From the NCBI RefSeq assembly GCF_900184735.1, contig NZ_LT855386.1:518988-582987 (forward strand): 64,000 nt of DNA, given 5' to 3'. Below the pieces are notes generated by a model. That model ran no database searches and was not told where the DNA came from. It saw only the letters and a program-made list of their open reading frames with translations. Within the stretch, counting starts at the first letter, position 1; the number at the start of each line of letters is the position of its first letter. This stretch comes from Paucisalibacillus globulus. Its GTDB lineage: Bacteria > Bacillota > Bacilli > Bacillales > Amphibacillaceae. The translations under genes and the position numbers were made by a program. Shown here in pieces: positions 21,100 to 64,000 of the stretch.

Positions 21100-21115
21100 T
21101 GTGTTAAGATTCACA
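21100..21115. promoter_or_regulatory. Fnr/Crp-type box upstream of fnr
   Basis: TGTGT-TAAGAT-TCACA differs at one position from TGTGA-N6-TCACA. It lies about 90 nt before the fnr start and about 90 nt upstream of the leftward phosphatase gene. Autoregulation of fnr is the simplest reading, as in B. subtilis where narK-fnr is Fnr-controlled. Confidence 0.55.
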
Positions 21116-21203
21116 ATATCGTAACCAGTAAAGACTCTTTTGTAACTTGTTCAATGGTAAACTAATGGTAGAGTGTAACAGCTTTTTAAAGGAGATGGTA
21201 TTG

Positions 21204-21929
21204 ATGCTAGCCGGTTTAATGTTAGGATCTAGGAGCAATACAAACTTACCGATTTCAGATGAATTAAGAGAGTTATTAAATTCTATCAGCACAACTAGAA
21301 AAGTATTTAGAGGGACCTATCTATTCCATGAGGGTTTAGAGGCAAATGAAATATATATTGTTAAATCTGGACTTGTACAAGTCTCCAAACTGACCGCAGA
21401 TGGTAAAGAGTTAATATTAAGAATCTGCAATCATGATGACATTGTAGGAGAATTATCATTATTTAGTGATGACCCAGTATATTTACTAAGTGGTAAAGTT
21501 CTTTCTTCTGGTGAAGTACATGTAGTGGATAAAGAACAATTAGAAAAAGCTTTAGTTTCCAATAGTAACCTAACTTTTGAGTATATGAGATGGACTAGTA
21601 CACAGATGAGAAAATTCCAGTCCAAAATTAGGGACCTCCTATTGAATGGAAAAAAAGGCGCACTATACTCCACCCTCATCCGTTTAGCGAATAGCTATGG
21701 GCTCGAAAGTGATAGTGGAACACTGATTAACGTTACCCTTACCAACCAGGAGTTAGCAAATTTTTGTGCAGCATCACGAGAAAGTGTCAATCGAATGTTA
21801 GTAGAACTAAGAAAACGAAAGGTAATAACCATAGAAAAATCCGGAAAAATCTTCATCAAAAACATGGATTACCTAAAAAACGAAATCGGCTGCGAAGAAT
21901 GCCCCCTAGAAATATGTAATATAAATTAA
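21204..21929 (+). CDS. fnr: Anaerobic regulator Fnr (Bacillus type, C-terminal Fe-S ligands)
   Basis: A 241-residue Crp/Fnr-family activator. The start at ATG 21204 follows AAAGGAG by 8-9 nt. The cyclic-nucleotide-type beta barrel spans about 20-130 (YLFHEGLEANEIYIVKSGLVQVSKL). The HTH is LTNQELANFCAASRESVNRMLVELRKRKV, with Arg-Glu-x3-Arg as in Crp, suited to TGTGA half-sites. The C-terminus ends CEECPLEIC, placing Cys230, Cys233 and Cys238 with the 3 and 5 spacing known for the [4Fe-4S] ligands of B. subtilis Fnr. It should be active without oxygen and is the likely master of the boxes in the 30-35 kb island. Confidence 0.92.
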   Translation: MLAGLMLGSRSNTNLPISDELRELLNSISTTRKVFRGTYLFHEGLEANEIYIVKSGLVQVSKLTADGKELILRICNHDDIVGELSLFSDDPVYLLSGKVLSSGEVHVVDKEQLEKALVSNSNLTFEYMRWTSTQMRKFQSKIRDLLLNGKKGALYSTLIRLANSYGLESDSGTLINVTLTNQELANFCAASRESVNRMLVELRKRKVITIEKSGKIFIKNMDYLKNEIGCEECPLEICNIN

Positions 21930-26503: not shown

Positions 26504-27064
26504 CTATTCTTCTAGCTCTTCTTCAATAAACAACGATTGTACGTAATAGATCAAGATACCAATTGCAGTAAATAACGATGTCCAACCTAAAGCTTTTTGT
26601 TCTGCAACGATATAGTTATTACATAATTGATTAGGCGATGCAATGTACAGTAATGAAACAATCCCATAAACAATTGCAAAACTAATCAATGCTGTACTCT
26701 GTCCTCTTTTCGATAACTTTTTCCAACTATCTCGTAAAGGAACACCAGCTAAAAACGGTAGACTGATAAACTTAAAGATTTCCACAGATAAAGTTGAGAT
26801 TGCATCATCCATCGCCCTTGGTACCATCATCCAATAAATAAGGATAATGAAGAACAACAAGGTTCCTGGAACTCCATTTGTATTCCATTTTTCAAAGAAA
26901 CCAGGGAACTTCTCCTTTAAATAGGGTGTGAATAACATTCCCACAATCACAAGTAGTGGCATTTGCATATGCATGTGTAATACCATAATAGACTCAGATA
27001 TTGAAATAACAGGTGGGAGCATTAAAAAGATATAAAATATAAGTCCATAAATAGCTTGTTTCAT
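26504..27064 (-). CDS. Membrane protein of the NO reductase operon (orf1-like)
   Basis: A 186-residue protein with about five hydrophobic helices and a His/Met-rich turn (VLHMHMQMPLL, residues 29-39) that could bind copper or heme. It starts one base after the stop of the SenC gene, so it belongs to the operon. In ammonia oxidisers the sNOR cluster is norS-norY-senC-orf1, and this gene occupies the orf1 position with the expected membrane character. Function is unknown; a role in metal loading or assembly of the reductase is plausible. Confidence 0.72.
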   Translation of the reverse strand: MKQAIYGLIFYIFLMLPPVISISESIMVLHMHMQMPLLVIVGMLFTPYLKEKFPGFFEKWNTNGVPGTLLFFIILIYWMMVPRAMDDAISTLSVEIFKFISLPFLAGVPLRDSWKKLSKRGQSTALISFAIVYGIVSLLYIASPNQLCNNYIVAEQKALGWTSLFTAIGILIYYVQSLFIEEELEE

Positions 27065-27065
27065 A

Positions 27066-27698
27066 TTACTCCCCCACTTTCTTATTTAATATCGCATTTA
27101 CTTTCTTAGCTGCTTCGTCTATTTTTGTATAATCCATTACTTCTACTAGTTTCCCTTCAGGATCTACTAAATAAAATGCTGAGTTATGGGTAAAGTTTCC
27201 ACTATTATCTGGGATAACAATAACTCCAAAGGAATCTAGTAAATTCTGTAATTCCTGTTTATCAGGAATGCGAGTCATTCTCCATGTTTCCTCATCACTA
27301 TTAAAGTAGTGGCTATATTTTTTCAAAGCTTCGATATCATCTCTATCTGGATCAAAACTTATGCTAAGAAAAACGATCTCTTCCCCGATATAGTTATCTG
27401 GGATTTGTTTATAAACTTCTGCCAAATTCATTTCTAGTTGAGGACAAACGTCTGTGCATGCGGTGTAAATAAATGTAAGCATGACATATTTCCCCTCAAA
27501 TTCAGAAAATGAATACATTCTCTCTTTACTATCTTCTAAAATGACATTAGGAAAAGTTGGTCTGTCCTGTTCTAATTGAAGAGTTCTTGCCGATTCTGCT
27601 GTAAAAGCTTTGAAGCCATCTGTCCCAACAAAATATAAAATAAATCCAAATACCATCACGAGGACAATCGCAATTACTTGTTGTTTATTTTTCATCAT
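27066..27698 (-). CDS. senC: SCO1/SenC-type copper chaperone
   Basis: About 210 residues from the tandem ATG at 27698, with one N-terminal membrane anchor (residues 8-24) and a thioredoxin-like domain outside the membrane. The copper site is complete: Cys81 and Cys85 in YTACTDVCPQLE and the distant His in GNFTHNSAFYLVD. SCO proteins deliver copper to CuA centres. Here it directly follows subunit I of an enzyme whose subunit II carries CuA, which fits that task. A longer reading from 27746 is possible but lacks a ribosome site. Confidence 0.92.
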   Translation of the reverse strand: MMKNKQQVIAIVLVMVFGFILYFVGTDGFKAFTAESARTLQLEQDRPTFPNVILEDSKERMYSFSEFEGKYVMLTFIYTACTDVCPQLEMNLAEVYKQIPDNYIGEEIVFLSISFDPDRDDIEALKKYSHYFNSDEETWRMTRIPDKQELQNLLDSFGVIVIPDNSGNFTHNSAFYLVDPEGKLVEVMDYTKIDEAAKKVNAILNKKVGE

Positions 27699-27772
27699 AC
27701 TTATCACATCCTTATATGACGGAAATAGAAAGAGATAGCCTAACAAGTTGCAAGACTATCTCTCATTTTCAT

Positions 27773-29446
27773 TTACCACGTTCTAATTGGAGGTGATCCA
27801 GGAGGTCCATTAAATATCATTTCTGTTAGTGGCATTGCATAACCCATAGCTAGGATAATTATGAGCAATGCAACCACTAGCCCCCAGTTCTTTGTCCATT
27901 TCGGAGTATTCTTTGTTCCATCGGTTTCAGCTACTGGGAATTCAGTAAGCCCTTTTGGTGCTTTAAACATTAGATGGAAGACAATGTACACCATTAAGAT
28001 AACTGCTATCATTAGTAATGTTCCACCAATTGCTAAGAAGAACAAGTATGGTTCCCAGCCAAGTGCTGTTGCATTATCACCATATGTTGAGTAAGAAGTT
28101 CTTCTAGGTGAACCAAGTAAACCTACCCAGTGCATTGCACCAGCCATGAAAATCATACCAGTAGTCCAAAGAATGGTTTGAATAACACCTAATTTATTCA
28201 TTTTAGGAGTAAGCACACGACCTGAGAGGTGTGGAACTAACCAATATACAATCCCAAAGAATGTCAATGCTACAGTTAAACCTAAAGTAAAGTGGAAATG
28301 ACCTGTAACCCATAATGAGTTGTGGACTACTTGGTTTAAGTGATGGTTTGTTTGAGCAATACCACCAGCTCCCCCAGGAATAAATGCTGCCATTGCTATG
28401 AATGGTGCTAAGAAGCGTACATCACTCCATGGTAATTTTTTGAACCATCCAAGTAATCCTTTTCCACCGTTTTTACGACCAACACGCTCAAATACTGCAA
28501 ACATCGCAAAGGCTGTCATTAATGAAGGGAAGGCAATGGATAAACTCATAAATACATGGGCGAATTTCCATCCTTCTGTAATCGCTGGGTCAACAATTTG
28601 GTGGTGGAATCCACCAGGGATGTTTAAAATTACTAGTAATATTACTACTAATCTTGTTAGTGAATCACTAAACCCTTTTCCACCGATAAGTTTCGGAACT
28701 GCTACATACCATGCTGATACCGCTGTAAAGTACCATACGTTAACTAATGTGTGACCAAATCCCCAGAACAATGTTCTTGAAACCATAACGTTAACCGTTT
28801 CAGTCCATCCAAACGCCCAAGGTATAAGTGTTAATACTTCAATTGCAACTAATATACTTGCACTAAATAATAGAAGGAATGCACCAACTGCAAAGTATGA
28901 TAGTAATGGCAGATGCTCTCCTTTATGTTTCTTCTTCCAATCCCATGCATTTAGAAATACACCTATTGCTGCAAGCCAAATACCTACTACTAGAAAGACT
29001 AACCCAATATAAAACCAAGGTGAAGCTTGCATTGGTGGATAAAATGTGAACATAACAGAGGCATTACCAGCAATGATAGTAATAGCTACCAGAACTGTAC
29101 CAAACACAGCTGAACCAAATGCGATCCAACCTAGTTTTCTTGTAATTGGTATTAATCCCCCAAGCACATGTGAAATAGAAGCGTAAAAATATCCAATCAT
29201 GAATAATGTTGTAAATACAAGTATCATTAAGATACCGTGTGCTGTAAGCGTTTGATAGTAATCAAACCAAGATGGTAAAGTGAATAAACCAGCACGGTTT
29301 AATCCTTGTAAAAGTCCTAAAGTTCCTCCAATTAGTAATACTATAAATGCTAGTGATAAATATGTTTTAGTAAGCTTTGCATCCTGTGGATTAACACCTA
29401 AAGCTTTATTTACTTTATCCCCTAATTTCTTCTCTGCTAACGCCAT
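27773..29446 (-). CDS. norY: Heme-copper subunit I of a CuA-type NO reductase (sNOR NorY-like; B-family fold)
   Basis: A 557-residue, about 13-helix protein aligning with Thermus ba3 oxidase subunit I. The low-spin heme ligands are His70 (QTLTAHG) and His385, the high-spin heme ligand His383 (VTGHFHF), and the CuB or non-heme-metal ligands His232, His281 and His282; each sits one residue before its ba3 counterpart. The oxidase tyrosine cross-linked to the first of these histidines is absent: GHTLVN has Asn236 where ba3 has Tyr237 in GHPIVY. Loss of this tyrosine is the mark of NO reductases. With the gene order IIa-II-I-senC-orf1 and an Fnr box beside nirK, I call it sNOR. A plain ba3 oxidase is the alternative. 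Confidence 0.85.
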   Translation of the reverse strand: MALAEKKLGDKVNKALGVNPQDAKLTKTYLSLAFIVLLIGGTLGLLQGLNRAGLFTLPSWFDYYQTLTAHGILMILVFTTLFMIGYFYASISHVLGGLIPITRKLGWIAFGSAVFGTVLVAITIIAGNASVMFTFYPPMQASPWFYIGLVFLVVGIWLAAIGVFLNAWDWKKKHKGEHLPLLSYFAVGAFLLLFSASILVAIEVLTLIPWAFGWTETVNVMVSRTLFWGFGHTLVNVWYFTAVSAWYVAVPKLIGGKGFSDSLTRLVVILLVILNIPGGFHHQIVDPAITEGWKFAHVFMSLSIAFPSLMTAFAMFAVFERVGRKNGGKGLLGWFKKLPWSDVRFLAPFIAMAAFIPGGAGGIAQTNHHLNQVVHNSLWVTGHFHFTLGLTVALTFFGIVYWLVPHLSGRVLTPKMNKLGVIQTILWTTGMIFMAGAMHWVGLLGSPRRTSYSTYGDNATALGWEPYLFFLAIGGTLLMIAVILMVYIVFHLMFKAPKGLTEFPVAETDGTKNTPKWTKNWGLVVALLIIILAMGYAMPLTEMIFNGPPGSPPIRTW

Positions 29447-29464
29447 GTAAATCTTCCTCCTTTC

Positions 29465-29932
29465 TTACTTAACTGTAATCGTTGTACTCATAATTTGGTG
29501 TCCAATACCGCAATACTCATTACATAAGACTAGGTATTCACCAGATTCATCAAATGTTTGCTTTATTTTCTGAATATATCCAGGCATGACCATAGCATTT
29601 AGATTAGTTCCCGCAACTTGAAAACCATGAATAACATCTTTTGATGTCATAATAAACTCCACTTCCGCTCCAACAGGAATTTCAATATTACTTGGTGTAA
29701 ACTGGAACGCTTGTAATGTCATGACAACTTGATATTTATTTTCTCCAACTTCATAAACACCAGGTTCGCTAAATAATTCATGTTCATCTACTTTCTCTGG
29801 ATCAAGTGTTTCCATACCACTTGGGGGGCCCATTTGTTTAGCAAAACCTTGATAACCAGTAATAACCATTGAAAGTACTAAAATAGCAACACCTATTACT
29901 AGAAAAATCTCTTCAGCGCGATGAAACTTCAT
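29465..29932 (-). CDS. norS: CuA-containing subunit II of the NO reductase (NorS-like)
   Basis: A 155-residue protein with one N-terminal helix (residues 10-30) and a cupredoxin domain outside the membrane. CuA ligands are all present: His102 (IHGF), then Cys137, Glu139 (main chain), Cys141, His145 and Met148 in CNEYCGIGHQIM. This is the two-copper electron entry site that takes electrons from cytochrome c or a copper protein and passes them to subunit I. It is as short as the ba3-type subunit II (about 168 residues). It lies 18 nt upstream of subunit I and 17 nt after the small IIa gene. Confidence 0.9.
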   Translation of the reverse strand: MKFHRAEEIFLVIGVAILVLSMVITGYQGFAKQMGPPSGMETLDPEKVDEHELFSEPGVYEVGENKYQVVMTLQAFQFTPSNIEIPVGAEVEFIMTSKDVIHGFQVAGTNLNAMVMPGYIQKIKQTFDESGEYLVLCNEYCGIGHQIMSTTITVK

Positions 29933-29949
29933 TTCACTTTACCTCCCTC

Positions 29950-30105
29950 TTATACTCGTGTCATATATAAAACTAAGAGTAATGCAATAACTAATATAAT
30001 TCCGCCACCGACAAAGATCAGTGAAGAAGCTAGTGCTCCTTTATAAGAATGCTCTTCATGATCAATTTCTTCTTGATTAGGTACAATCCCTTTATTCACT
30101 GCCAC
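29950..30105 (-). CDS. Small single-helix subunit (IIa/CbaD-like) of the NO reductase
   Basis: A 51-residue protein below the usual gene-finding size. GTG start at 30105, 5 nt after AAAGGAGGG. The N-terminus is polar (NKGIVPNQEEIDHEEHSYKG); residues 26-48 are one transmembrane helix (SSLIFVGGGIILVIALLLVLY). Thermus-type ba3 oxidases have a 34-residue IIa subunit encoded just before subunits II and I in cbaDBA; the position and form here are the same. It is first in the operon, 30-60 nt from the Fnr-type promoter. Confidence 0.83.
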   Translation of the reverse strand: MAVNKGIVPNQEEIDHEEHSYKGALASSLIFVGGGIILVIALLLVLYMTRV

Positions 30106-30133: not shown

Positions 30134-30176
30134 ATTGTATTTTTTGAGGGGACGTTTCTAAGTGAAATATGTCACA
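30134..30176 (-). promoter_or_regulatory. Fnr-type promoter of the NO reductase operon
   Basis: On the minus strand TGTGA-CATATT-TCACT (30176-30161; one mismatch) is followed by TACAAT at 30139-30134. The last base of the -10 hexamer lies 35 nt from the box centre, which puts the box at about -41.5, the class II activation position. The neighbouring CACAC-N5-GTGTG symmetry just upstream may extend the site. Confidence 0.8.
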
Positions 30177-30317
30177 CTTAACGTGTGATTTTTGTCTCAT
30201 TTCCAGATGAAAATGACAAGATTGTGAACGATGTTACAAGGTTGGATAATGTGTAAGTAAAGAAAGTCATGTGCTTTTACCATTCTTGTTGTTTGATGCG
30301 ATATATAAAGATTTCCT

Positions 30318-30798: not shown

Positions 30799-31821
30799 TT
30801 ATTCAGTTACGATAATCTTACCAGCTGCACCTTTTTCAACATGTTCAAATTGATGCGTTACAAATTTGTATTCACCTGGTTCTTTTACAACGAACTCTAC
30901 AACAGCTCCACCACTTGCTGGTAAGCCAACTGTTTGCATTCCTTTTTGATGATTAGCTGGATGACCATCGATATAAACATCTTCCATGATGGTACCAATT
31001 ACGTGGAAGCTACTTATTTCGTTAGGGCCGATATTATTGATATAGAATCGTATCTTATCGCCCACTTTTGCTTCTAGTGGAGTATCTATTAAAGCCCCTA
31101 CCGTACCATTCGTGTTCACTTGTCCTGGCTCTAATGCTTTAGCAGAGAATACTACTTGGTTAGGCTCCCCCTCTATCATATCTCCCATGTCATTGTAGTC
31201 GTACCATTCATTTTGAATGATGACAAACTCTTTGTCGACTTCATTATCTGTTGGATATCCATCAGTTGGTTTTACGATGATGACACCGTGCATTCCGTTT
31301 GCGATATGAGCTAATACAGGTTCCGTACCACAATGGTACATGAAGACACCAGGACTATTAGCTTGATATACAAAAGTACCTTCTTCATGTGGCATAACAT
31401 TAGCAAATCCTACATTAGGTGCCGTATGCACAGCGTGGAAATCCATACTGTGTGGCACTGCTGGGTCCATATTATCAAGAGTAAAGTGTATCGTATCTCC
31501 TTCATTTACAACTACTACTGGACCAGGCGCTTCACCATTAAATGTCCAAGCTTTATACAAGGTATCATTATCAAGTTGAATATCAGTAATTTGTGCTGTC
31601 ATCTTAACAAAGACATCCGTTCCATCACGTTCTACTTCAAGAGGAACCGGTTCCTGATTTATTCCTTCATGAGGAGCAAATACTTGTGCACTAACTGTTT
31701 CAATATTCTTATCTGTCGTATCCAGTTTTTCTGTATTCTCTAATTGATCACCACAAGCAGATACTAATAGAACTGGAATACTTAACCCTACAAGCAACCC
31801 GAATTTAATTTGTTTTTTCAT
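30799..31821 (-). CDS. nirK: Copper-containing nitrite reductase NirK, lipoprotein form
   Basis: A 340-residue enzyme reducing nitrite to NO. The start is ATG 31821, 5 nt after GAGGTGA. The lipobox is VSAC with Cys23, so it is anchored to the outer face of the membrane. The type 1 copper ligands are His124, Cys164, His172 and Met177 (YHCGTEPVLAHIANGM); the type 2 ligands His129, His163 and His323 (VTHQFEH); the catalytic Asp127 (SMDFHAVH) and His273 (SFHVIG) are also present, so it should be active. It is monocistronic, with a perfect Fnr-type box upstream. Confidence 0.96.
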   Translation of the reverse strand: MKKQIKFGLLVGLSIPVLLVSACGDQLENTEKLDTTDKNIETVSAQVFAPHEGINQEPVPLEVERDGTDVFVKMTAQITDIQLDNDTLYKAWTFNGEAPGPVVVVNEGDTIHFTLDNMDPAVPHSMDFHAVHTAPNVGFANVMPHEEGTFVYQANSPGVFMYHCGTEPVLAHIANGMHGVIIVKPTDGYPTDNEVDKEFVIIQNEWYDYNDMGDMIEGEPNQVVFSAKALEPGQVNTNGTVGALIDTPLEAKVGDKIRFYINNIGPNEISSFHVIGTIMEDVYIDGHPANHQKGMQTVGLPASGGAVVEFVVKEPGEYKFVTHQFEHVEKGAAGKIIVTE

Positions 31822-31904
31822 ATTGCTCACCTCAGAGTTTTTGTAAGATAAGATATTGTGATGTAATGAACATTAAATTTACTACTTATCTTATCTTCAA
31901 CTTA

Positions 31905-31947
31905 ATTATAATTGTCACGACAGTTACTACATGTGATTCAAATCACA
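31905..31947 (-). promoter_or_regulatory. Fnr-type promoter of nirK
   Basis: Perfect palindrome TGTGATTTGAATCACA (31947-31932, minus strand) followed by TATAAT at 31910-31905, whose last base is 35 nt from the box centre. No -35 hexamer is needed in this class. The spacing is identical to the NO reductase promoter. Confidence 0.87.
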
Positions 31948-32112: not shown

Positions 32113-32511
32113 TTATTGTACGACTAATGTTGAAACCATTTCTCCGTGACCTTCACCACACATAATGCTACATAAAATTTTATATTCTCCAGGTTCAGTA
32201 GGTGTAAAAGTAGCTTCTCCCTCACCATCAATTGTTACATCTAAACCTTCAATTATAATTCCATGCATACCTTCATCATTAGTTAAGGAAACTTTAACTT
32301 CTTCACCAGCTTTGACTGCATAAACATCTTTATCAAATTCGAAATTTGAAGCAACGATATTTACTTCGTTATTAGGATCTGGAGTTGCTGTTTCTGTACT
32401 TTGTTCTGTATCAGATGATGTATCCGCCTCTTTAGATTCTGAATCATCTCCCCCACATGCTGCTAGAACCAAAACTAATGAGAATAGTAATGCAAAAAGT
32501 ATTTTTTTCAT
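32113..32511 (-). CDS. Free-standing CuA-domain lipoprotein
   Basis: A 132-residue lipoprotein: lipobox LAAC with Cys19, an acidic Ser/Thr/Glu linker (residues 21-48), then one cupredoxin domain (49-132). The domain has a full CuA ligand set: His83 (GMHGI), Cys114, Cys118, His122 and Met125 in CSIMCGEGHGEM. There is no transmembrane helix pair and no subunit I, so it is not an oxidase subunit. It may be an electron carrier to NirK or the NO reductase, or a copper carrier. It has its own Fnr-type promoter. Confidence 0.85.
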   Translation of the reverse strand: MKKILFALLFSLVLVLAACGGDDSESKEADTSSDTEQSTETATPDPNNEVNIVASNFEFDKDVYAVKAGEEVKVSLTNDEGMHGIIIEGLDVTIDGEGEATFTPTEPGEYKILCSIMCGEGHGEMVSTLVVQ

Positions 32512-32549: not shown

Positions 32550-32592
32550 ATCATAAAGTGTATTGTTGCATTTGAATGTGATGTAAATCACA
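32550..32592 (-). promoter_or_regulatory. Fnr-type promoter of the CuA lipoprotein
   Basis: Minus strand TGTGATTTACATCACA (32592-32577; perfect half-sites) with TATGAT at 32555-32550, last base 35 nt from the box centre, the same register as nirK and the NO reductase. Confidence 0.85.
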
Positions 32593-32676: not shown

Positions 32677-32916
32677 TTATTTTTTTCCGATTGCCACTCT
32701 CCATAGGGTTGGTCCTTCTTCTAAATATTCCCATGAAAATTGTCCATCTCTTTCCATCATAAACTGGTAATACAGTGGTTTAGGGTCATGATCATTAGAA
32801 AGTTCCATATACTCCCCAGCCTTTAAACCTTCAAACACTTCAAAGATTTTTGGATGACGAATTCTTGGTTCTATGTCTGGTGCATGCAATTTTGTTGCAA
32901 ATTGTATCTCTTTCAT
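32677..32916 (-). CDS. DUF2249-type protein
   Basis: A 79-residue protein matching the DUF2249 (TusA-like) pattern: LHAPDIEPRIRHPKIFEVFEGLKAGEYMELSNDHDPKPLYYQF and a closing WRVAIGKK. Members often lie beside hemerythrin, nitrite or NO reductase genes; their role is unknown, with metal or sulfur transfer suggested. AGGAGGAAT stands before the ATG. An Fnr-type box is shared with the divergent regulator gene. A palindrome TGTACATGTACA lies at 32937-32948. Confidence 0.82.
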   Translation of the reverse strand: MKEIQFATKLHAPDIEPRIRHPKIFEVFEGLKAGEYMELSNDHDPKPLYYQFMMERDGQFSWEYLEEGPTLWRVAIGKK

Positions 32917-32995: not shown

Positions 32996-33011
32996 TGTGA
33001 TTTTCATCACA
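32996..33011. promoter_or_regulatory. Fnr-type box between the DUF2249 gene and the second Crp/Fnr gene
   Basis: TGTGA-TTTTCA-TCACA is perfect in both halves. To the right, TAATAT/GATAAT (33030-33037) lies near the expected -10 distance for the regulator gene; to the left, TAAATT one base from the standard register serves the DUF2249 gene, more weakly. One site may therefore activate both, or activate one and repress the other. Confidence 0.75.
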
Positions 33012-33071: not shown

Positions 33072-33761
33072 ATGTCACCAGAATCAATACGTGAACTCTT
33101 ACAACAATTTCCTATGTTTAAAGACTTAACGAAAGATGAAATGATGCCAATTGTAGATATTGCTAAAAGTCGCTTTTTCCCACAAGGGACACATGTATTT
33201 ATGCATGGAGATCCTTTGACAAATGTTTATTTTATACAAAAAGGAAAAATTAAAATCTATCGAACAGATTTGCAAGGTAAAGAACAACTTATTAATGTGT
33301 TGAGTGATAATGAGATGTTTCCACATCAAGGATTCTTTCGAAAAGATGACTATCCAGCTCATGCAGAGGTAATGGAGGATGCAAATCTAATTTATGTTCC
33401 TATTAAATTGTTTGAAGAGTTGCTTTTCACTCACCCAGAAATTTGTGTGAAACTCTTTCGGGTATTAGGAGATAAGATAGTAGAATTACAAAATCGCTTA
33501 GAGGAAAAAATGTTACATAATACGTATGAACAGATTATTATGCTTTTATTAAGACTTGCTAAAGATGGAAAAAAACATGATGAAACATTCACTCGATTAA
33601 ACTTACAATTAACCAATCGCGAATTAGCAAATATGATAGGCTCTAGCCGTGAAACAGTAAGCAGAACACTAACACAACTTAAAAAGAAAAAGTTAGTAAG
33701 CTCTGATTATGCAAGTTATTTAGTAATAGATGTAATGGGATTGCACAAAGAAATATTTTAG
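33072..33761 (+). CDS. Crp/Fnr-family regulator without Fe-S ligands
   Basis: A 229-residue regulator. The start at ATG 33072 follows GGGAAGGA; an upstream in-frame ATG at 32997 would lie inside the regulatory box. The sensor barrel (FPQGTHVFMHGDPLTNVYFIQKGKIKIYR), dimer helix and HTH (LTNRELANMIGSSRETVSRTLTQLKKKK) are all present. Only one Cys occurs, so it cannot hold an Fnr cluster. It may sense NO through heme as Dnr-type regulators do, or another signal. The recognition helix has Arg-Glu-x3-Arg, so it should read the same TGTGA boxes as Fnr. Confidence 0.88.
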   Translation: MSPESIRELLQQFPMFKDLTKDEMMPIVDIAKSRFFPQGTHVFMHGDPLTNVYFIQKGKIKIYRTDLQGKEQLINVLSDNEMFPHQGFFRKDDYPAHAEVMEDANLIYVPIKLFEELLFTHPEICVKLFRVLGDKIVELQNRLEEKMLHNTYEQIIMLLLRLAKDGKKHDETFTRLNLQLTNRELANMIGSSRETVSRTLTQLKKKKLVSSDYASYLVIDVMGLHKEIF

Positions 33762-33917: not shown

Positions 33918-35054
33918 CTACACGGTCCGCTTCTGCTTTCCTTTTTGTCGCATCGCTTTCGGTATATAGACACAATATGGTTCACTTTCCATATAGTCAC
34001 CTGTTATATTATAGGCTCTAGAACGGGATCCCCCACATACATGACGGAACTCACAAACGCCACATTTCCCCTTATATTTATCTGGATTTCTTAGATTTTG
34101 AAAAATCTCTGATTCACGATATATTTTAGAAAGTGGTGTAACACGAACATTCCCTGCCTTAATCGGTAATAATCCGCTAGGAAAAACATCTCCAGTGTGG
34201 GAAATGAAAACAAAACCATTTCCATCATTTACTCCTTTAGGTGCACGACCTAAACCATCTATTTGCCCTGTTTTCCCTTGATTGATTGCATCCTCATAAA
34301 AGATATGCTCTGCACCACTCATTCCTTTTTGTTCACGCATTTTCTGTTGAATAACGACACGTCGATAATGTTGACCAGCCGTTGTTTTAATATCAAATGG
34401 TACTCGTTTAGATAGCTGATATAGCCACCTAAAAACTTTTTCATGCTCAGCAGGAGTTATCATATCCGATTCCTTTCCCCTACCAGTAGGCACAAGGAAA
34501 AAGACGCTCCATAACACACAGTTTAAGTTCTCCACCATTTCTGCCATTTCATCTAAATAATCATAATTATATCTTGAAATAACCGTATTAATTTGGAGTG
34601 GCATATCCAGCTCATGCAAGTAACTAATTGCGTTCATCGTTAAGTCGAATGAACCAGATGTACCACGAAAATGATCGTGTACTTCCGCGCAATGTCCATC
34701 GATACTAAATGCCCATCTTGCCAATCCAATATCTTTTGCCTGTTGCATGGCTTCTTTCGTAACGTTAGGTGTTGCAGATGGTGTCATCGATACCCGGACA
34801 CCTTTCTTAATTGCATATTCCGCTATATCAAATACATCCGGACGCTCCAAGGGATCCCCACCAGTAAACACTAGCATTGGATTATCCATTTCATAAATAT
34901 CATCTATTAATTTCTTACCTTCTTCAAATGTCAATTCTAGTGGATGACGGTGATGCTGTGCTTCAGCCCGGCAATGTAAACAATGTAATTGACAAGCCCT
35001 CGTTAACTCCCAAATAACAATAAATGGATTTTCATTATAGTCTCGATTAAACAA
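33918..35054 (-). CDS. Radical SAM/SPASM protein (NirJ/AhbD-like group)
   Basis: A 378-residue enzyme. The SAM-cluster motif is Cys21-x3-Cys25-x2-Cys28 (TRACQLHCLHCRAE), followed by LVFTGGDPLERPD. A C-terminal SPASM-type region has Cys at CGVCEFRHVCGGSRSRAY and EPYC, for an auxiliary Fe-S cluster. The whole layout is that of the NirJ/AhbC/AhbD radical SAM enzymes, which modify heme precursors. NirK needs no heme d1, so oxygen-independent heme synthesis (AhbD-type decarboxylation of coproheme) is an attractive role, but sequence alone cannot decide. An Fnr-type box precedes it, so expression is probably anaerobic. Confidence 0.82.
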   Translation of the reverse strand: MFNRDYNENPFIVIWELTRACQLHCLHCRAEAQHHRHPLELTFEEGKKLIDDIYEMDNPMLVFTGGDPLERPDVFDIAEYAIKKGVRVSMTPSATPNVTKEAMQQAKDIGLARWAFSIDGHCAEVHDHFRGTSGSFDLTMNAISYLHELDMPLQINTVISRYNYDYLDEMAEMVENLNCVLWSVFFLVPTGRGKESDMITPAEHEKVFRWLYQLSKRVPFDIKTTAGQHYRRVVIQQKMREQKGMSGAEHIFYEDAINQGKTGQIDGLGRAPKGVNDGNGFVFISHTGDVFPSGLLPIKAGNVRVTPLSKIYRESEIFQNLRNPDKYKGKCGVCEFRHVCGGSRSRAYNITGDYMESEPYCVYIPKAMRQKGKQKRTV

Positions 35055-35086: not shown

Positions 35087-35129
35087 ACTTTAGAATGATT
35101 ACACGTCACTTGGTGTGACATTTATCACA
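35087..35129 (-). promoter_or_regulatory. Fnr-type promoter of the radical SAM gene
   Basis: Minus strand TGTGATAAATGTCACA (35129-35114, perfect half-sites) with TAAAGT at 35092-35087, again 35 nt from centre to the last base of the -10. Read rightward, the box is too far from the oxidase gene to fit a promoter in the same register. Confidence 0.78.
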
Positions 35130-63914: not shown

Positions 63915-63943
63915 TGTTTGTGATTCATCTCACATATATAATA
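63915..63943 (+). promoter_or_regulatory. Promoter with an Fnr/Crp box in its spacer
   Basis: TTGTTT (63915-63920), a 17-nt spacer, then TATAAT (63938-63943): near-perfect sigma-A elements. A perfect TGTGA-TTCATC-TCACA box (63920-63935) fills the spacer, so bound Fnr or Crp-type protein would block polymerase. The gene it serves lies beyond the right edge. Confidence 0.68.
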
Positions 63944-64000
63944 TAACAAGAGCCCAGTTTTTTTTCAAGAAGTTTGTTATACATTTCACAAATCTGTCAC

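Follow-up and report, generated by a model that had tools for sequence, protein, structure and literature searches.

Does the five-gene operon at positions 26504 to 30105 (minus strand) of the 64-kb stretch of contig NZ_LT855386.1 presented above (the window) encode an oxygen reductase or a nitric oxide (NO) reductase, and of which kind? The gene order is small peptide, CuA-bearing subunit II, subunit I, SCO/SenC and membrane protein, and the genes very probably encode an NO reductase descended from an oxygen-respiring enzyme. As judged by comparison with related loci, the operon can be assigned with a probability of about 0.92 to CuANOR (also called bNOR or qCuANOR type I), a heme-copper enzyme of the B family that converts 2 NO to N2O. 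The enzyme is of a known kind, one already purified from a soil Bacillus, and the initial annotation, made from the letters of the window, had filed it under the wrong family name, sNOR.

The operon and its active site

The genes of the operon, with their order, strand and coordinates, are as first annotated:

26504 to 27064, minus strand: cbaD, membrane protein of 186 residues, with homologs in 20 of 20 bNOR loci and in sNOR operons
27066 to 27695, minus strand: SCO/SenC copper chaperone (PF02630, E 9.8e-21)
27773 to 29446, minus strand: cbaA, subunit I, the heme-copper catalytic subunit of 557 residues, with Asn236 in place of the cross-link Tyr (COX1, E 3.1e-77)
29465 to 29932, minus strand: cbaB, subunit II, with a complete CuA site and one N-terminal hydrophobic stretch (by eye; phmmer against Thermus ba3 subunit II, E 5.7e-32)
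29950 to 30105, minus strand: cbaC, subunit IIa, single-helix peptide of 51 residues with a GTG start at 30105 and a good ribosome site upstream

In our judgement the ATG at 27695 is a more likely start for the SCO/SenC gene than the listed TTG at 27746. No Pfam family matched CbaD. The resemblance of subunits I and II to heme-copper oxidases is beyond chance, as seen from the E values above and from an E of about 1e-97 between subunit I and its Thermus ba3 counterpart (phmmer). Alignment to Thermus subunit II recovered the full set of CuA ligands (His102, Cys137, Cys141, His145, and Met148), in agreement with the complete site first reported.

Subunit I holds His70, His232, His281, His282, His383, and His385 together with Asn236 within GHTLVN, and both phmmer and MAFFT align Asn236 with Thermus Tyr237, so the proposed replacement of the oxidase cross-link tyrosine stands. 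The accompanying claim that each heme and CuB histidine is numbered exactly one less than in Thermus is correct for five of the six; the exception is His70, whose Thermus counterpart is His72 and whose number is therefore lower by two. Asn and all six histidines were found in 28 of 28 bNOR rows of the alignment, whereas 15 of 15 oxidase rows carry Tyr at the cross-link position. Three residues after the Asn, every one of the 28 bNOR rows has an extra Tyr (Tyr239 in the window enzyme), where the oxidases carry Leu (15/15); the sNOR rows have an extra Tyr four residues after it (26/26). Both extra tyrosines are thus one turn of the helix past the Asn. The channel residue Tyr244 (Thermus number) is present in all 15 oxidases and gone from all bNOR and sNOR rows; it is also lost, without a new Tyr, from two eNOR-like rows. 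Among the K-channel positions (Thermus numbers), the window enzyme retains Ser309, Thr312, and Tyr248 and has lost Tyr244 and Thr315. One proton channel is listed for the bNOR/CuANOR class in Table A4 of PMC8756737.

The window enzyme is thus like the ba3-type oxidases (Thermus 1ehk and Bacillota relatives) in having subunits IIa, II, and I, the six histidines and the Ser309, Thr312, and Tyr248 positions, and unlike them in the changes Tyr237 to Asn and Tyr244 to Val, the Tyr at 240 and the presence of SCO and CbaD genes. Identity as a true ba3 oxidase was rejected on the replacement by Asn236 and on the missing Tyr in all 28 bNOR rows. Nor was a NorB-type subunit (cNOR or qNOR) found as nearest relative among solved structures, each of the 23 matches with E of 0.001 or lower being named cytochrome c oxidase. 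eNOR is likewise a B-family NO reductase with CuA, but has Gln (as in L043 and L156) where the window enzyme has Asn. A gene on the Thermus thermophilus plasmid NZ_AP025614.1 (L043, 1821–3506), annotated as cbb3-type oxidase subunit I, carries this Gln and adjoins genes for an Rrf2 regulator and a DUF542 protein; one of its heme-histidine columns reads Lys, perhaps through misalignment. It is likely a misannotated eNOR.

Orthology to the purified enzyme

The operon cbaC1-cbaB1-cbaA1-senC1-cbaD1 of Bacillus (Schinkia) azotoformans is described in PMC3475470 as that of the purified qCuANOR, in which the Tyr is changed to Asn. The cbaA1 gene, whose product is 61% identical to the window subunit I, was located in Schinkia azotoformans LMG 9581 at the contig position printed in that paper, and the two N-terminal peptides published for the purified CuANOR are encoded there, MHKSEKIW... 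in cbaB and NTQEVVKEGREG... in a cbaC of 46 residues. The two operons agree in gene order, Asn, CuA subunit, small membrane peptide, SCO, membrane protein and clade. They differ in their surroundings, the window operon lying near nirK, a CuA-motif lipoprotein gene, a DUF2249 gene and a radical SAM gene, whereas nirK of S. azotoformans is isolated according to PMC3475470. The Asn at the cross-link position and the orthology to the purified enzyme bear out the initial annotation in its central point, a CuA-driven NO reductase and not an oxidase.

It is conceivable, though very improbable, that the operon encodes a high-affinity oxygen reductase that has given up the cross-link and reduces NO as a side reaction. 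The bNOR clade adjoins Bacillota ba3-type oxidases (see below), and a terminal-oxidase role has been argued for the sNOR of N. europaea (PMC6967387). However, the Tyr that all 15 oxidases keep is lost throughout the bNOR rows, the purified ortholog is reported to be a highly active NO reductase (PMC5826923), the operon lies among denitrification genes, and a Tyr-bearing ba3-type oxidase (L003) is present elsewhere in the genome, along with two A-family-like oxidases.

The CuANOR type is common in related bacteria. In 27 of 28 named genomes, hand-picked out of 80 loci and chosen for having an sNOR-type gene, a bNOR of at least 61% identity was found; none at this level was found in Calidifontibacillus erzurumensis, where the best matches reached 48–49%. 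Within the order, 299 genomes were sampled, and 46 of them match bNOR at E 1e-210 or better (the window's own genome included, and one with an internal stop). For comparison, PMC11388526 gives bNOR in 123 of 433 Bacillota genomes having NO reductase and/or Nos.

Separation from sNOR

The subunit I tree was built with a quick method from 72 rows chosen from 162 gathered, with L043 added. It includes the window and all 27 bNOR rows from the named genomes; L108 and L169 (no usable open reading frame) and L170 were left out of the set, and L044 and L045 are long rows. The sNOR group is anchored by Ruegeria pomeroyi, of which Silicibacter is presumably the former name, and the NorY of ammonia oxidisers lies outside the sample. 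The window subunit I falls within a bNOR clade of 28 rows, S. azotoformans (L151) included, with a support of 100 in the Shimodaira-Hasegawa-like approximate likelihood-ratio test; it is 95% identical to that of Ornithinibacillus halotolerans and 90% identical to that of Paucisalibacillus globulus. The clade pairs (97) with 11 Bacillota ba3-type oxidases, the oxidases of Thermus, Deinococcus, Haloarcula, and Caballeronia remaining outside. The initial annotation had named a position inside true ba3 oxidases as what would speak against an NO reductase, and the tree comes close to it: subunit I is nested among B-family oxidases, yet in the clade of the purified NO reductase.

Could the window enzyme instead belong, as first proposed, with the NorSY of ammonia oxidisers, an sNOR by the literature? 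The enzyme resembles sNOR (qCuANOR type II of PMC3475470; R. pomeroyi) in the Asn position, in the CuA-bearing subunit II and in its SCO and membrane-protein neighbours, which are homologous to genes of sNOR operons. Asn at the cross-link position is common to sNOR and CuANOR and is therefore not diagnostic of sNOR. The 26 sNOR-type rows, including R. pomeroyi, form a separate group (support 80, or 100 with the Thermomicrobium row L045), and forcing bNOR and sNOR into one clade costs 163 log units and is rejected by the approximately unbiased (AU) test (p 1.8e-5). Moreover, the window's own genome holds a real sNOR-type operon, the subunit I of which is only 23% identical to that of the window. 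The window subunit I has 557 residues vs. 476–520 in 25 of the 26 sNOR rows, the last having 632, and sNOR has Val or Leu at the Ser309 position. Reportedly, a study in PNAS defined bNOR, sNOR, gNOR, and nNOR. CuANor/bNOR and sNOR are handled as separate kinds in PMC8756737, where Table A4 places Silicibacter under sNOR, and in PMC11388526. On the other hand, PMC3475470 labels type I "qCuANOR, sNOR" and equates it with the sNOR of N. eutropha, so the sNOR label is an understandable conflation. Membership in sNOR is nevertheless highly unlikely, and CuANOR is the preferred assignment. Among 14 sNOR-bearing genomes (of 369, sampled class-wide around a gammaproteobacterium) none had an AMO match in a search whose control was silent too.

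The small peptide is a further difference. A one-helix peptide precedes cbaB, by a rule of length, position and hydrophobicity, in 20 of 20 bNOR regions, which were hand-picked out of 27 with bNOR (L176 stops at a contig end and L181 starts at one). A similar peptide precedes subunit II of the ba3-type oxidase L003 of the same genome. With phmmer (E up to 10) the 51-mer gave no match by itself. Only when 17 peptides, taken from 15 of the 20 regions, L003 and the window, were combined into a profile was Thermus ba3 subunit IIa, 1ehk_C, matched (E 4.9e-6). Because of these counterparts and of the profile match, the 51-residue gene is identified from its sequence as that of subunit IIa/CbaC. It is not the novel small subunit that it had been taken for, as the small gene of CuANOR was already described in 2012 (PMC3475470). 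No such peptide was found at the sNOR operon of the window's own genome, the only sNOR operon examined in this respect, where the sole candidate lies 230 bases off and is dissimilar by eye; this argues against sNOR for the window operon.

Regulation and the denitrification neighborhood

Boxes of the Crp/Fnr type (TGTGA-N6-TCACA), found by pattern search and given without strand, and the following genes surround the operon:

21147 to 21929, plus strand: second Crp/Fnr-family regulator (PF00027, PF13545), with a C-terminal CxxCxxxxC, a pattern of Bacillus Fnr, and a one-mismatch box at 21100
30161 to 30238: three boxes with one mismatch each, upstream of cbaC
30799 to 31830, minus strand: nirK, copper nitrite reductase with a lipoprotein-like N terminus (lipobox by eye; TIGR02376, E 3.7e-59)
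31932 to 31947: perfect box upstream of nirK
32113 to 32511, minus strand: free-standing cupredoxin of 132 residues, lipoprotein-like, with the CuA pattern CxxxCxxxHxxM (best phmmer matches Thermus CuA domains, E 1.3e-10)
32577 to 32592: perfect box upstream of the cupredoxin gene
32677 to 32916, minus strand: DUF2249 protein (PF10006, E 2.6e-26)
32996 to 33011: perfect box between the DUF2249 and regulator genes
33072 to 33761, plus strand: Crp/Fnr-family regulator (PF00027, PF13545)
33918 to 35054, minus strand: TIGR04053 family radical SAM/SPASM protein (522.8 bits, above the cut-off of 395)
35114 to 35129: perfect box between the radical SAM and multicopper oxidase genes

The window contains five perfect boxes vs. 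0.07 expected and 11 with at most one mismatch vs. 2.74 expected. Only these strict forms exceed chance, as boxes with up to two mismatches numbered 36 vs. 35.57 expected, and FNR-type TTGAT-N4-ATCAA sites with at most one mismatch were not above chance (8 vs. 8.60 expected). Among 20 related bNOR loci, 17 carry a box with one mismatch or none, four of them a perfect one, within about 600 bases (439 in L181) upstream of the cbaB frame; random sequences of similar dinucleotide composition would give 0.47 loci. The boxes at both promoters, in line with the shared regulation first proposed, support a Crp/Fnr-type regulon comprising the bNOR operon and nirK, and it is plausible that a single regulator serves both, the candidates being those at 21147 and 33072. 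For the latter the start is likelier the ATG at 33072 than the GTG at 32997, which falls within a perfect box. One further perfect box (at 63919) and one near box are found close to the right end of the window (63919–63990), away from the denitrification genes.

Some observations weigh against this picture, and the link to nirK is not a general one. All boxes at the bNOR promoter of the window have one mismatch, and three of the 20 related promoters (L172, L179, and L185) have none. The NirK score for TIGR02376, 200.7 bits, is below the curated NCBIfam cut-off of 296.3; the protein is 65% identical to S. azotoformans NirK. nirK is near bNOR in only three of 21 regions (those of the window and of its two closest relatives, P. 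globulus and O. halotolerans), and no NirK match at E 1e-20 was found in three of 29 genomes searched (G040, G044, and G056), all three of which carry bNOR.

The cupredoxin may supply bNOR or NirK with electrons or copper. Its CuA ligand pattern, CSIMCGEGHGEM, is of the form CxxxCxxxHxxM, which is kept in five of five counterparts in the fetched bNOR regions, and it is found near bNOR in five others of the 20 regions. At E 1e-10, 17 of 29 genomes yielded a match, in some cases a weak one or one embedded in a longer frame; B. azotoformans yielded none, and PMC3475470, in its account of electron donors, reports it to be without cupredoxin donors. In G040 and G044, which have no NirK match, the gene also lies close to bNOR, and its partner may thus be a protein other than NirK. 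Seven of 21 regions have the radical SAM and DUF2249 genes close to bNOR; in one of them, that of Oceanobacillus senegalensis, the radical SAM match is split over three frames.

In the genome as a whole, five COX1 matches were found: the A-family-like L001 and L002, the Tyr-bearing ba3-type L003, the window enzyme and an sNOR-type protein of 493 residues (L005); none of the five is qNOR-like. The sNOR operon, in the order subunit II, subunit I, SCO and membrane protein, starts about 8 kb past the right end of the window, with subunit I at contig positions 592130–593608, about 9 kb past that end, and SCO and CbaD at L005 209–1406. narG spans the left edge of the window, so that narG, bNOR, nirK, and sNOR lie inside about 76 kb, and the genome has two NirK. 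No match to the body of NosZ was found with the one model used (TIGR04246), which gave CuA-domain matches only, none over the cut-off, and which no control genome passed either; the organism may therefore well stop at N2O.

It is possible, though rather unlikely, that the enzyme is a CuANOR whose main role is NO detoxification under micro-oxic conditions and not respiration. PMC11388526 cites a suggestion that bNOR may reduce NO aerobically in microoxic settings, and the three bNOR genomes without a NirK match point the same way. A respiratory role for CuANOR, in contrast, fits with the nearby nirK and its shared boxes, with narG at the edge of the window and with the reported electrogenic activity of the ortholog (PMC5826923).

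Origin of the SCO-CbaD genes

Window and own-genome sNOR operon are 59% identical in SCO and 41% in CbaD, compared with the 23% for subunit I. The R. pomeroyi sNOR locus carries both accessory genes, each 35% identical to those of the window. Of 19 sNOR loci, 11 have both, three have CbaD only (L058, L064, and L068), one has SCO only (L118) and four have neither (L087, L097, L102, and L114). Neither gene was seen in the flanks, about 1–2 kb, of the oxidase loci L003, L041, L042, and L044 and of the sNOR-like L045. In the CbaD tree (made without L121_s, which is identical to L120_s) all 21 rows from bNOR operons cluster together (100/99), and seven of nine Bacillota sNOR rows join this cluster (99/99); the S. 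azotoformans, Calidifontibacillus and proteobacterial sNOR rows stand apart. In the SCO tree 21 bNOR rows and four Bacillota sNOR rows come together (99/95), the bNOR rows are not monophyletic and long branches meet.

The bNOR operon therefore looks chimeric at the level of its sequences, with a ba3-like core and SCO-CbaD genes common to sNOR operons, and we infer that the transfer would have gone from sNOR to bNOR. It is possible that SCO and CbaD form an accessory cassette specific for NO reductases. It is tempting to go further and to speculate that two B-family lines separately became NO reductases by the same remodelling (Tyr to Asn, loss of Tyr244 and a new Tyr that takes over proton delivery), that the bNOR cassette was taken from a Bacillota sNOR operon and is therefore an assembly module specific for NO reductases, and that the CuA-motif lipoprotein is a dedicated electron carrier for bNOR and NirK; this combined scenario is doubtful.

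Proposed mechanism and implications

Beside the homology, ligands, clade, gene order and boxes observed above, we infer for this organism an activity, a donor, a proton path, assembly roles and a binding regulator as follows. Electrons would enter CuA of subunit II from a membrane-bound carrier like cytochrome c551, the CuANOR electron donor according to PMC3475470, and perhaps also from menaquinol. From CuA they would pass to the low-spin heme and on to a heme/metal centre that lacks the His-Tyr cross-link owing to the change from Tyr to Asn236. A rebuilt K-like channel, lined by the Ser309, Thr312, and Tyr248 positions and perhaps by Tyr239, would supply protons from the cytoplasmic side, which makes an electrogenic reaction likely. 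SCO/SenC and CbaD may serve in assembly, with CbaC as subunit IIa. A Crp/Fnr-family regulator would turn on bNOR together with nirK, and NO made by NirK would therefore be removed at once.

Whereas the enzyme itself is ordinary, the history of the operon and the repeated active-site pattern are moderately interesting. KEGG labels bNOR and sNOR as cytochrome c oxidase, as noted in PMC11388526, and Gram-positive denitrification and N2O release can therefore be missed. The recurrence of Asn together with a new Tyr provides a small set of point mutations for asking how an O2 reductase becomes an NO reductase.

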